Position numbers and translations under genes: made by a program | The notes under the pieces: model-generated | Told to the model about the DNA's origin: nothing | What the model saw: the letters and a program-made list of their open reading frames with translations, nothing else | Database searches by the model: none | In this document: positions 11,574 to 15,264 of the stretch, piece after piece | How positions within the stretch are numbered: position 1 is the first letter of the stretch | Layout of the letters: each line of letters begins with the position of its first letter | Assembly (NCBI RefSeq): GCF_008386465.1 | Contig: NZ_VUOD01000005.1 | Span: 1-64,000 of the forward strand | From: Arenimonas fontis | Lineage (GTDB): Bacteria > Pseudomonadota > Gammaproteobacteria > Xanthomonadales > Xanthomonadaceae | Length of the DNA: 64,000 nucleotides | Direction of reading: 5' to 3'

Positions 11574-12719
11574 TCAGGGACGCAACCAGGGCCTGGGATC
11601 CTGCGGCCGGCCGTCGCGGCGCAGTTCGAAGTACAGCGCCGGCCGGCCCTGGCCGCCGGAACTGCCGACCGTGGCCACCGGCTCGCCGGCACGCACCCAG
11701 TCGCCGACGTCCTTGAGCAAGGCGTCGTTGAAGGCGTACAGGCTCATCCAGCCATCACCGTGGTCGATGATGGTCAGCAGCCCGTAGCCCTTGAGCCAGT
11801 CGGAAAAGGCCACCCGCCCGGGCGCCACCGCCCGCACTTCGGCCCCGGCCGTGCCGCCGACCAACCAGCCCTCGCTGGGTCGCCCATCCGGCAAGCGGCC
11901 GCCGAAGGCGGCCAGCACACGTCCGTCCAGGGGCTTGGGCAGCTGGCCGCGGCGGCTGGCGAAAGGGCGGGTGTCGTCCACCTGGCGCGGGATGTCGGCG
12001 ACCGCATCGCGCAGGCGTTCCAGCAGGCCCAGCACCGCCTTCTCGTCCCGCCCCAGGGCCGCCAGGCGGGCGGCCCGGTCCTTGAAGCCGGTCTGCAGTT
12101 CCGCCAGGACGGCGGCGCGTTCGCCGCGCTCGGCTTCCAGCCGGGCCAGCTCCTCCTGTTGCTGCCGGCGGGCGCTTTCCAGTTGCTGGCGCTGTTCCTG
12201 GATGCGCCGGGCCACTTCGGCCAGGTCACGCAACTCGGCGACCAGTCCGGCGATACGCTGCTGGCGGTCGGCCTGGAAATAGCGGTGGTAGGCAAGCACC
12301 CTGGCCAGGTCGGCCATGCGGTCCTGGGCCAGCAGCAGCTTCAGCTGTTCGTGCCGGCCCAGCGCGTAGGCGGAACGGACCAGGGCGGCCAGCACCTCGC
12401 GCTGCTCGGACAGCCCGGCCTCGAGCAGGGTCCGCTCCTGCTCGAGGGCGGCCAGCTCCTGCTCACGGGTGGCGATGCCGGCCTCGGTGCGGCGCAGCGC
12501 CCGCACCGCTTCGGCGACCCGGGCGTCGGCCTCGCGCAGGGCCCGGGTCGCCTGGCCGCGTTCGCCCTCGGCGGCACGCTGCTCGGCGGTGATCGTCCTG
12601 ATCTGGCCGCGCAGGGTCTCCAGGCGCTGCTGCGCCCGGCTTTCCTCGCTGGCCTGGTCGTTCCGGGCCGACGCCGCCGGCGCGGCCAGCAGCAGTGCCA
12701 GCGCCAGGATGCGGATCAA
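11574..12719 (-). CDS. envC: Murein hydrolase activator EnvC
   Basis: This 381-residue periplasmic protein has a signal peptide (1-18), a long coiled coil rich in Gln/Glu/Arg (about 22-250), and a C-terminal degenerate LytM domain (about 262-381). The latter contains VRAVAPGRVAFSDWLKGYGLL, MSLYAFND and VGSSGGQGRPALYFELR. Several zinc ligands of active LytM enzymes are replaced, as in E. coli EnvC, which activates amidases AmiA/AmiB at the septum. The start is TTG 12719 (GGAG five bases upstream), overlapping the gpmI stop. The gpmI-envC-ctpA order is typical. Confidence 0.9.
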   Translation of the reverse strand: MIRILALALLLAAPAASARNDQASEESRAQQRLETLRGQIRTITAEQRAAEGERGQATRALREADARVAEAVRALRRTEAGIATREQELAALEQERTLLEAGLSEQREVLAALVRSAYALGRHEQLKLLLAQDRMADLARVLAYHRYFQADRQQRIAGLVAELRDLAEVARRIQEQRQQLESARRQQQEELARLEAERGERAAVLAELQTGFKDRAARLAALGRDEKAVLGLLERLRDAVADIPRQVDDTRPFASRRGQLPKPLDGRVLAAFGGRLPDGRPSEGWLVGGTAGAEVRAVAPGRVAFSDWLKGYGLLTIIDHGDGWMSLYAFNDALLKDVGDWVRAGEPVATVGSSGGQGRPALYFELRRDGRPQDPRPWLRP

Positions 12720-14278
12720 GCCGGCTCCAGCAGCGAACGACCGCTCATCTCGGCCGGCCTGGGCAGGTCCAGCAAGTCCAGCAGGGTCGGAGCGATGTCG
12801 CGCAGGGCCCCGCCTTCACGCAGGCGGACCCGGCGGCGGCCGACGTAAACCAGGGGTACCGGCCCGACCGTATGCGAGGTGTGCGGCTGGCCGGTGTCCG
12901 GGTCGCGCATCATTTCCAGGTTGCCGTGGTCGGCGGTGACGATCATCTCGCCGCCCACGGCCTCCAGCGCGGTGCGGATGGCGCCCAGGGCATCGTCCAC
13001 GGCCTCGGCGGCCTTCACCGCCGCCGCCATCACGCCGGTGTGGCCGACCATGTCGGGGTTGGCGATGTTGCAGACGATCACGTCGTGCCGGCGTGCGCGG
13101 ATGTCCTCGGTCAGCCTGGCGGTCAGTTGCGGCAGGCTCATCTCCGGCTGCAGGTCGTAGGTGGCGACCGGCGGCGAGGGCACCAGCACCCGCTCCTCGC
13201 CCGGCAACACGGTTTCCTTGCCCCCGCTCAGGAAAAAGGTGACATGGGCGTACTTCTCGGTTTCGGCGATGCGCAGCTGGCTCAGGCCGTGGGCGCTGAG
13301 CACCTCGCCCAGGGTGTTGCGCAGGTCCTCGGGGCCGAAGGCCACCGGTGCCGGCAGTTTCGCGTCGTACTCGGTCAGGCAGACGAAGCGCGACAGGGCA
13401 GGCCGGCGGGCGGCGAAGCCATCGAAGCCCGGAGCCACGAAGGCGGCGGTCAGCTGGCGGGCGCGATCGGCACGGAAGTTCATGAACACCACCGCATCGC
13501 CGTCGGCCATCGGCCGGTGACCGCTGATGACCGTCGGCTGGACGAACTCGTCGTTCTCCTCGCGGCCGTAGGCGGCCTCGAGCGCGGTGATGGCATCGGA
13601 GGCGGTGTCGTCGGCTTCGGCCTCGACGATGGCCTTCCAGGCCCGCTCGACCCGGTCCCAGCGGCGATCGCGGTCCATCGCCCAGTAGCGGCCGATCACC
13701 GTGGCCACGCGCACGTCGCCCTCGGCGCACAGGGCCTGCAGCCGGGCCAGGCTGGGCCCGGCCGACCGCGGCGGCGTGTCACGGCCGTCCAGGAAGGCGT
13801 GCACGGCGATGTCGGCCACGCCCCGGCGACGGGCCAGCTCGATCATGGCGAACAGGTGTTCCTCGTGGCTGTGCACGCCGCCCGGGGACAGCAGGCCCAT
13901 GAGGTGCAGGGTGCCGCCGGCGGCCTTCGCGCCCTCGCAGGCGGCCACCAGCTCGGGGTTGGCGAAGAAGCTGCCGTCCTCGATGGCGGCGTCTATGCGG
14001 CTCAGGTCCTGATAGACGATGCGGCCGGCGCCGATGTTCATGTGGCCGACCTCGGAATTGCCCATCTGGCCGTCCGGCAGGCCCACGTGCCGGCCCTCGG
14101 TGTGCACCAGGGTATGCGGGCACTCGGCCAGCAGCCGTCGCCAGTTCGGCAGCCGGGCCTGGGCCAGGGCGTTGTCGGTCGGATCCTCGCGGTGGCCCCA
14201 GCCGTCCAGGATCAGCAGCAACAGGGGCTTGGGGCGGGCGGTGGCGGTCGGCAAGGCGGTCTCCGGTACGTCTGGCAC
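12716..14278 (-). CDS. gpmI: 2,3-bisphosphoglycerate-independent phosphoglycerate mutase
   Basis: This is a 520-residue glycolytic enzyme interconverting 3- and 2-phosphoglycerate using two Mn ions. The N-terminal metal site is LLLILDGWG. The phosphoserine nucleophile region is GQMGNSEVGHMNIGAG. Further markers are HAFLDGRDTPP, ADRARQLT, KYAHVTFFLSGG, NIANPDMVGHTG and VTADHGNLE. Start: GTG 14278 with TACAAT ending 6 nt upstream, suggesting a leaderless transcript. TTG 14254 with GGAG six bases upstream is a plausible alternative that is eight residues shorter. The stop overlaps the envC start. Confidence 0.93.
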   Translation of the reverse strand: MPDVPETALPTATARPKPLLLLILDGWGHREDPTDNALAQARLPNWRRLLAECPHTLVHTEGRHVGLPDGQMGNSEVGHMNIGAGRIVYQDLSRIDAAIEDGSFFANPELVAACEGAKAAGGTLHLMGLLSPGGVHSHEEHLFAMIELARRRGVADIAVHAFLDGRDTPPRSAGPSLARLQALCAEGDVRVATVIGRYWAMDRDRRWDRVERAWKAIVEAEADDTASDAITALEAAYGREENDEFVQPTVISGHRPMADGDAVVFMNFRADRARQLTAAFVAPGFDGFAARRPALSRFVCLTEYDAKLPAPVAFGPEDLRNTLGEVLSAHGLSQLRIAETEKYAHVTFFLSGGKETVLPGEERVLVPSPPVATYDLQPEMSLPQLTARLTEDIRARRHDVIVCNIANPDMVGHTGVMAAAVKAAEAVDDALGAIRTALEAVGGEMIVTADHGNLEMMRDPDTGQPHTSHTVGPVPLVYVGRRRVRLREGGALRDIAPTLLDLLDLPRPAEMSGRSLLEPA

Positions 14279-14284
14279 GGGCGA

Positions 14285-14290
14285 ATTGTA
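14285..14290 (-). promoter_or_regulatory. TACAAT -10-like element 6 nt before the gpmI GTG
   Basis: On the minus strand TACAAT is followed by TCGCCC and then GTG. The distance fits transcription starting at the start codon. No Shine-Dalgarno sequence precedes this GTG, which supports either a leaderless start or use of the downstream TTG. Confidence 0.45.
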
Positions 14291-14333
14291 GCCGGCGGGG
14301 GGAGGCTGGGCCCGTGCATACTTCAGCGGCCCG

Positions 14334-14493
14334 TAAAGGCAACACTGAACAAGTCCATCCTGGACGTGTTCAGTGGTCGCAAGTCCGGCACATGTCCGGA
14401 CTTGCGCCCGCGGATCAAGCACTTGCGTGCCTGGTCCGCGGGCGCGCCATCCATGGCGCGCGGGCAACGCTGACCTAATCAGCGTTGCCTTAA
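14334..14493. repeat. 160-bp element of five consecutive hairpins with outer inverted repeats (MITE/REP-like)
   Basis: Five stem-loops fill this stretch end to end. Stems: 14343-14351/14367-14375 (9 bp, with a nested GTCCA/TGGAC); 14379-14388/14396-14405 (10 bp, perfect); 14404-14414/14435-14445 (11 bp, perfect, nested GCAC/GTGC); 14442-14450/14453-14461 (9 bp); 14463-14473/14479-14489 (11 bp, perfect). The outer ends 14334-14348 and 14479-14493 are also inverted repeats (13 of 15 match, AAGGCAAC...GTTGCCTT). There is no coding potential. It lies between divergent gpmI and the repeat protein. Confidence 0.85.
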
Positions 14494-14547
14494 ACCCCGG
14501 CCGGCCCGCGGGCATCGGACCGGGTACGTCCACAGGAGTCACCTGCC

Positions 14548-15264
14548 ATGCGCGTACGCACCCTCGTCCCCCTCGTTGCCCTGTCCCTGGCCCTGTCGGC
14601 CGGCCCGGCCCCGGCCAAGGAAAGCATCAGCAAGGTCTTCGGCGGCATCACCGCCGAGGAAGGCCGCGAGTACGGCTCGCTGGATTCGGTAAATGGCGGC
14701 ATCACCATCCGCGAGAACGCGGTGGTGCGCGAAGCCGAGACGGTCAACGGCGGCATCAGTGTCGGCGAACGTGCACGGGTAGGCAGCGCCAGCACGGTCA
14801 ACGGTGGCATCAGCCTGGATCGCGAAGCCCAGGCCGGCAACCTGAGCACCGTCAACGGCGCCATCCGGCTGGCGGACGGCGTCCAGGTCGAGGACGAGGT
14901 CGAAACGGTCAACGGCGGCGTCAAACTGATGCCCGGCGCCCGTATCGGCGGCGAGCTGAGCACCGTCAACGGCGCGATCTCGCTCAGGCGTGCGGTGGTC
15001 GGCGGCGGCATCCACAGCGTCAACGGCGATCTCACCCTGGAAGACGGTTCGGTGGTGCGTGGCGGCATCCGCTACGAGAAGCCCAAGGGCTGGAACTGGA
15101 GCGGCTCGCGCGACCCGCGCGTGGTGATCGGCCGCGACTCCGAGGTGGTGGGCGAGATGGTGTTCGAGCGCGAGGTCGAGCTGTTCGTGCACGAGACCGC
15201 CAGGATCGGCAAGGTCACCGGCGCCACCGCCCAGCGCTATTCCGGCGACCAGCCCCCGCGCTGA
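14548..15264 (+). CDS. Secreted repeat protein with seven (S/T)VNG repeats, predicted beta-solenoid
   Basis: This 238-residue protein has a cleavable signal peptide (1-23, ending APA). It then carries seven repeats of about 18-22 residues, each with SVNG or TVNG followed by an alternating hydrophobic strand (for example TVNGGISVGERARV). A tail with DPRVVIGRDSEVVGEMVFE follows. The pattern resembles bactofilin/DUF4097-like right-handed beta-helices, but no named family is recognised with certainty. CAGGAG precedes the ATG at good distance. It is probably periplasmic or surface exposed. No enzymatic residues are evident. Confidence 0.75.
   Translation: MRVRTLVPLVALSLALSAGPAPAKESISKVFGGITAEEGREYGSLDSVNGGITIRENAVVREAETVNGGISVGERARVGSASTVNGGISLDREAQAGNLSTVNGAIRLADGVQVEDEVETVNGGVKLMPGARIGGELSTVNGAISLRRAVVGGGIHSVNGDLTLEDGSVVRGGIRYEKPKGWNWSGSRDPRVVIGRDSEVVGEMVFEREVELFVHETARIGKVTGATAQRYSGDQPPR

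Follow-up and report, generated by a model that had tools for sequence, protein, structure and literature searches.

Bacterial MITEs are usually taken for insertion-sequence remnants and, in the passages cited here, are described as typically AT-rich (PMC10969869); other examples are the QMITEs of Coxiella (PMC5896051) and the MITEs of P. syringae (PMC3189936). REP/BIME sequences are characterised in the corresponding extracts as palindromes of 20-40 nt with a GTAG or CGTC tag (PMC3733652; also PMC2817692). A different kind of hairpin is found among the RNAs that bind CsrA/RsmA. The RsmE site is presented as a hairpin whose loop, ANGGAN, has a conserved A and GGA and variable N positions, the hairpin loops of CsrB carry CAGGA(U/A/C)G repeats, and CsrA ligands obtained by SELEX have mostly short stems (all from the cited sections of PMC7652899); the Rsm motif is written CANGGANG in an extract of PMC6849547. 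For Xanthomonas, the cited part of PMC7694677 states that RsmA binding to RsmU survives replacement of all four GGA motifs, and that no homologues of CsrB/RsmZ-type RNAs are reported in Xanthomonas genomes.

Here we report an element of five hairpins in the window, by which we mean the whole stretch of 64,000 nucleotides of Arenimonas fontis DNA that was analysed. The best overall explanation, and one that we hold to be probable, is a mobile MITE with a selected minus-strand fold and CsrA/RsmA-type loops. As a MITE the element is of a known kind. We found no description of its variant form, a class-wide family that conserves its hairpins and strand-specific loops and changes its terminal repeats. 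The search for a prior account of the hairpin family covered the open-access literature and returned none, and an earlier description is possible in subscription papers, which were outside its scope.

The element and its locus

Genes were called with a home-made coding-potential caller. It places gpmI at 12716-14278 on the minus strand (Pfam iPGM_N, E 8.9e-82) and the next gene at 14548-15264 on the plus strand; the protein of the latter, a secreted repeat protein according to the initial annotation, matched no Pfam family. The caller leaves 14279-14547 gene-free, in line with the earlier statement that no gene explains the element; long mechanical ORFs nevertheless cross it.

The RNA of 14320-14510 folds with a predicted energy of -118.7 kcal/mol, compared with a mean of -73.6 for shuffled sequences (z -10.8; 0/200 shuffles as good), and the DNA fold of the hairpin region likewise has a z of -10.8. 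All five of the consecutive stem-loops noted in the initial annotation are present and near-perfect. Its second structural claim, that the outer ends are inverted repeats, also holds, with 80% complementarity over 20 nt (14336-14355 / 14472-14491), and comparison of copies has moved the ends of the element proper, GGCAACACTGA...TCAGCGTTGCC, to the positions in Table 1. The flanks of the four copies in this genome line up on ends that read GGCAAC...GTTGCC, and the AA/TT just beyond them is part of the 4-bp target sites. The left site is probably TTAA altered by one base. We infer that the folded strand of the window element is the minus strand, on which folding predicts an unpaired GGA in the loops of hairpins 1 and 4.

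Table 1. Coordinates of the element, its hairpins and its target sites in the window
Feature	Position	Strand	Remarks
Left 4-bp target site, TAAA here	14334..14337	.	From flanks of the other own-genome copies and the empty site TTTAAACC in relatives
Element, 152 bp, in H1 to H5 orientation	14338..14489	+	Boundaries from four own-genome copies and copies in other genomes
Left terminal inverted repeat GGCAACACTGA	14338..14348	+	
Hairpin 1 (H1)	14343..14375	.	Minus-strand loop GGA (CAGGAUG) at 14358-14360
Hairpin 2 (H2)	14379..14405	.	Inner mismatch A.G on minus strand (G.A swap in other copies)
Hairpin 3 (H3)	14407..14442	.	Minus-strand loop GCAA (GNRA type) at 14423-14426
Hairpin 4 (H4)	14442..14461	.	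Minus-strand CCAUGGAUGG, fits C-ANGGAN-G; GGA at 14450-14452
Hairpin 5 (H5)	14463..14489	.	Right terminal inverted repeat (GGCAACGCTGA, minus strand) plus inner inverted copy
Right 4-bp target site, TTAA	14490..14493	.	

The minus strand is also the gpmI strand, on which the called start of gpmI comes 59 bp downstream of the element; were gpmI transcription to start beyond the element, the hairpins would lie in the gpmI leader. The initial annotation suggested that the element might insulate the two promoters; a consensus scan of 14250-14600 returned neither a sigma-70-like promoter nor a terminator-like site, and a role as terminator or insulator was set aside for lack of a consensus site in that stretch. 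On the other side, the element is inserted into a conserved TTTAAACC-like motif upstream of the secreted-protein gene. We note that such a motif is conserved in the genus about 50-55 bp upstream of the start of that gene (window 14490-14547; L190-L202).

Copies, end types and candidate transposase partners

The genome of A. fontis carries four full copies on four contigs, at 95-100% identity. The window copy is flanked by TAAA/TTAA and the other three by TTAA/TTAA, CTAG/CTAG and CTAG/CTGG. Two weaker, degenerate-looking core matches to the covariance model are also present in this genome (C12:184427-184514, E 2.9e-5; C1:398260-398346, E 0.0025; L132, L133). Of 38 aligned copies of the family, 18 have identical 4-bp flanks, 12 have flanks with one mismatch and 8 with two or more, and the sequence YTAR occupies 46 of the 76 flanks; as a control, a left flank equals the right flank of a random other copy in 12%.

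The neighbouring secreted protein served as query for a survey of the empty site in the 27 genomes of the genus. Twenty-six matched, including A. fontis itself, and the loci of 19 others were returned, the nineteenth of which (L208) ends too early to be read and is not counted. None of the 18 readable gpmI/secreted-protein regions contains the element. The insertion-point motif is intact in 16 (13 TTAAAC, two CTAAAC, one GTAAAC) and absent in two. The 26 other genomes of the genus contain no copy at E<=1e-6. The repeat copies, together with the empty site in relatives, indicate that the element arrived at this locus by transposition. Further copies, empty sites and target-site duplications had all been suggested as checks on the initial proposal of a miniature mobile element, and that proposal is borne out by the four copies, the 4-bp duplications of the family, the empty site and ends close to those of IS5-family transposons resident in two other genomes. 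We are thus highly confident that the sequence between gpmI and the secreted-repeat-protein gene is a non-autonomous transposable element (MITE) with IS5-type ends.

A DNA search found matches in 15 of 100 relatives, A. fontis included. The hairpin layout is common to the copies and the terminal repeats vary between genomes: type A ends (GGCAACRCTGA) occur in A. fontis and G048, type B ends (GGAAGGTCTGAACAAGTCC and variants) in G053, G061 and G086, and type C ends (CAGGCTGTTGA or CACGTTGTTGAGA) in G051, G069, G078 and others. In H1 and H5 the inner arm changes along with the terminal repeat type. After exclusion of six partial or rearranged copies and of weak matches, 52 rows were cut at fixed alignment columns, 46 of them 151-153 nt long; the remainder are four tandem units of 155 nt and two rows of 146 and 165 nt. 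Alignment A1 retains 38 rows, leaving out twelve SKIP rows, L058 and one L073 row, and A2 also omits L067 (37 rows). All 38 A1 copies come from the order and are 151-153 nt long; folded singly, 33 have exactly five hairpin loops, three have four, one has three and one has six.

R1, a covariance model built on hairpins 2-4, extends the family well past these relatives, with matches in 42/298 genomes and 21/89 genera of the order (E<=1e-7), 14/370 genomes and 13/273 genera of the class (E<=1e-5) and 3/397 genomes of a phylum draw (E<=1e-6), all three of them in the order, rates that are not comparable with one another because thresholds differ and strict filters lose weak matches. Outside the order R1 covers the core only; flanking hairpins (by eye and with a hairpin finder) and target duplications (by eye) are seen in some copies, not in every one. 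Among 81 matches the core is 80-91 nt long with 57-81% GC. The element had no match at E<=1e-3 among INPHARED phages or PLSDB plasmids, and IMG/VR returned none to one exact hairpin-2 pattern. In named genomes that pattern occurs in three stretches, all from Lysobacterales or Lysobacteraceae MAGs.

Two genomes contain tandem arrays, with a period of 127 bp and 4.9 copies in G061 (L073:991-1615), where by eye hairpins 1-4 repeat and hairpin 5 appears only at the end, and a period of 133 bp and 3.7 copies in G071 (L081:7189-7683). Also in G061, the element at 273-424 of L074 appears by eye to be nested in the end of another family copy. In the survey of gene context, every copy shares at most 60 nt with a called gene. 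Among the 49 classifiable of 64 copies (L141 left out), neighbouring genes run in the same direction in 15, opposite in 16, convergently in 10 and divergently in 8. There is no orientation bias towards genes in this set (15 same, 16 opposite), and convergent pairs are somewhat enriched (10/49, compared with 9% of other intergenic bases, with the home-made gene caller).

Mobilisation would presumably occur in trans, an IS5-family DDE transposase acting on the terminal repeats. The clearest candidates are in G061, which has 13 insertion sequences with perfect GGAGGGTCTGAACAAGTC ends, flanked by YTAR duplications in 12 and CTTA in one, and a translated ORF (L108) matching DDE_Tnp_1 and DUF772. 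We take the DDE_Tnp_1/DUF772 transposons found here to be members of the IS5 family, of the YTAR-target type. Six MITEs of G061 agree with the ends of this insertion sequence at 16-18/18 positions on the left and 15/18 on the right, and four MITEs of G069 agree with the IS ends of that genome (L087) at 12-13/14. We note that several type C copies in G069 and G078 (L043, L044 and the right flank of L056) and the IS copy L087 are followed by GTGTGGTGT sequence, perhaps an adjoining repeat.

Of 16 element-bearing genomes searched, 10 have a DUF772 match and the other six have none; among the loci with mapped ends in those 10, only G061 and G069 have IS ends near-matching their local MITEs, and the IS ends in G048, G329, G283 and G231 are unlike the MITE ends seen there. 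From the near-matching insertion sequences we infer mobilisation in trans, with good support in those two genomes only. In A. fontis, IS5 copies match the MITE ends at 12/14 and 10/14 positions, and of the 13 occurrences of the exact end pattern 11 lie within MITEs and two stand alone. An autonomous partner with identical ends was sought in this genome and not found. Draft assemblies may conceal partners whose repeats have collapsed or are missing.

Probable selection on a folded single strand

The whole-length consensus fold of A1 misaligns H1 and H5 across terminal-repeat types, joining the two ends of the element to each other, and covariation was therefore measured on the H2-H4 core only, from an alignment with 76 chosen loci as input. 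Over 79 distinct core copies, standard pairs fill 93.4% of the pair cells, and double changes are present in 27 of 31 pairs. The covariation score is 0.467 in this alignment, which is fitted to the model, compared with 0.144 when shuffled (0/500) and no more than 0.084 when slid. The MAFFT alignment A2 agrees, with 91.2% pairing, 17/31 pairs doubly changed and 0/500 shuffles; such shuffle controls leave relatedness among the copies in place.

The loops are specific to one strand. Hairpin 3 has a minus-strand GNRA loop in 50/79 copies (GNAA in 48) and in 0/79 on the plus strand, and hairpin 4 has the minus-strand motif CANGGANG (C-ANGGAN-G) in 68/79 and GGA in 72/79, again with 0/79 on the plus strand. 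The inner mismatch of hairpin 2 on the minus strand is A.G in 60/79, the swapped G.A in 14/79 and other in 5/79. For hairpin 1 a set of 74 rows was used, after removal of six rows from tandem arrays and of an upstream stretch that was repeated; a strict rule finds a minus-strand GGA hairpin in 48/74, 33 of them CAGGA(U/A/C)G-like, compared with 3/74 on the plus strand and 2.6% in shuffled sequence, and a looser apex finder places GGA in hairpin 1 in 56/74 and in hairpin 5 in 3/74. The minus-strand RNA is predicted to be the more stable in 32/38 copies, and plus-strand A.C oppositions exceed G.T ones (69 vs 45), two weak indications that are not independent.

The loop signatures are meaningful only on the complement of the window strand, and for this reason selection is likely to act on a folded single strand of that sense. 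That the inner structure outlives changes of terminal repeat across the families of the class also points to selection for the structure itself. The initial annotation had offered a highly structured RNA as an alternative to a mobile element. The conserved single-strand fold stands, yet the opposition between the two does not, since the family is mobile and shows strong compensatory change; the RNA itself is predicted.

The chief rival to an RNA function accepts the fold and assigns it to transposition at the DNA level. When single-stranded, as lagging-strand template or excised strand, the minus strand would fold and thereby aid the transposase or protect the ends, with no function as RNA, and we regard this as a serious possibility that falls short of probable. 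It would suit the terminal repeats, which lie partly or wholly inside H1 and H5 and whose type the inner arm tracks, as well as the lack of a transcription signal in the consensus scan and of an orientation bias to genes. GNAA loops and G.A mismatches are, moreover, stable in DNA as well. It sits less easily with IS5-type DDE transposition, which probably works on double-stranded ends, and we know of no DNA loop motif of the form ANGGAN with both N variable. The H4 loop, by contrast, matches the RsmE site as published (PMC7652899, in the section cited).

A second rival attributes the covariation to mutation, with template switching at the replication fork perfecting inverted repeats and making paired changes in one step. 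The long palindromic arms, with few imperfections, are in keeping with this, and quasi-palindrome correction is an established process. It leaves unexplained, however, the conservation of loops on one strand only (GNRA 50/79 vs 0; CANGGANG 68/79 vs 0) and the three-hairpin core of near-constant length (80-91 nt) common to the families of the class. Template switching may contribute to the stems, but as a full account it is countered by the constancy of the loops, and we consider it improbable.

That the element is a regulatory RNA gene or insulator owned by the host at this locus and duplicated by chance is very improbable; the strong fold and the position between divergent genes would be expected of one, but the element is missing from the site in 18/18 readable same-genus regions, and the 49 classifiable of 64 copies lie between genes in every orientation. 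A REP/BIME cluster, which the initial annotation had also proposed and which would be moved by a RAYT (Y1 tyrosine) transposase, shares the several palindromes and the intergenic position and was rejected, at a probability we put close to nil, on anatomy and target duplications, since the element is a single unit of 152 bp, bounded by terminal inverted repeats and 4-bp target duplications, has no GTAG/CGTC tag at its ends and belongs to a family whose members in two other genomes have ends close to those of IS5-type transposons there.

CsrA/RsmA and comparison with known systems

The preferred reading, a MITE with a selected minus-strand fold, leads to the question of what would recognise the loops. 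H4 fits ANGGAN, H1 often has CAGGA(U/A/C)G and nearly all carriers searched have CsrA, and on these grounds we propose the minus-strand RNA as a ligand of CsrA/RsmA. A flanking promoter reading through the minus strand would give an RNA displaying one or two GGA hairpins (H4, often H1), and RsmA binding to the read-through RNA might stabilise and quieten the transcript, or bring the neighbouring gene under RsmA control. Judged from the loop sequences, these are putative binding sites, and the CsrA/RsmA step is tentative and open to considerable doubt.

CsrA is present in 34 of 35 element-bearing genomes searched, A. fontis included; the exception is G257 (540 contigs), where none was found despite copies of CANGGANG. 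Its presence proves little because CsrA is common in the class anyway (324/370 genomes; 13/14 element carriers). Motif counts are likewise no proof of RsmA binding, given that RsmU binds without its GGA motifs, and the stems of the element are very stable, unlike those of most CsrA SELEX ligands as described in the cited section of PMC7652899. At 14200-14700 every Rfam family stayed below its cut-off, the listed matches being five to other families (E 0.088 to 0.86), all far short of their gathering scores; a known RNA family, CsrB/RsmZ sRNAs included, was rejected on this result.

A broader form of this proposal, more speculative still and on balance unlikely, is that an old, class-wide mobile family keeps CsrA/RsmA-binding hairpins and swaps its terminal repeats to fit the IS5-type transposase of the host, with single insertions acting as portable sites or decoys and the arrays of G061 and G071 as larger sponges. 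If this were true, element arrays could possibly fill the role of CsrB/RsmZ-type RNAs. If the loops do bind CsrA/RsmA, transposition would be a direct route for rewiring a global post-transcriptional network. The element would then also allow a direct test of the reasons for which certain non-coding elements retain elaborate folds.

Among the described systems, REP/BIME sequences are similar in being palindromic and intergenic and differ from the element in its 152-nt unit, its DDE-type target duplication and its untagged ends. The element resembles the IS5 family in its ends (GGnnnnnCTGA or CAGGCTGTTGA), in a 4-bp, mostly YTAR duplication and in the near-matching insertion sequences of G061 and G069; unlike IS5 members it has no transposase gene, and its inner sequence is by eye unlike the IS ends of G061. 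With the CsrB/RsmY/RsmZ RNAs (as described in PMC7652899) and RsmU (in the cited part of PMC7694677) it shares CAGGA(U/A/C)G and C-ANGGAN-G loops on one strand and a host with CsrA. Unlike CsrB/RsmY/RsmZ it is mobile, has one or two such loops per unit (more in the G061 and G071 arrays), has no promoter or terminator that we found and is known from sequence alone. The closest likeness is to bacterial IS MITEs, which are also short, non-coding and intergenic, with terminal inverted repeats, a target duplication, a potential transcript that is strongly structured and presumed mobilisation in trans. The element departs from the AT-rich composition given for MITEs (in the passage cited from PMC10969869), its core having 57-81% GC in 81 matches, and from the usual MITEs in hairpins and strand-specific loops that are conserved over many genera while the terminal repeats differ by genome.
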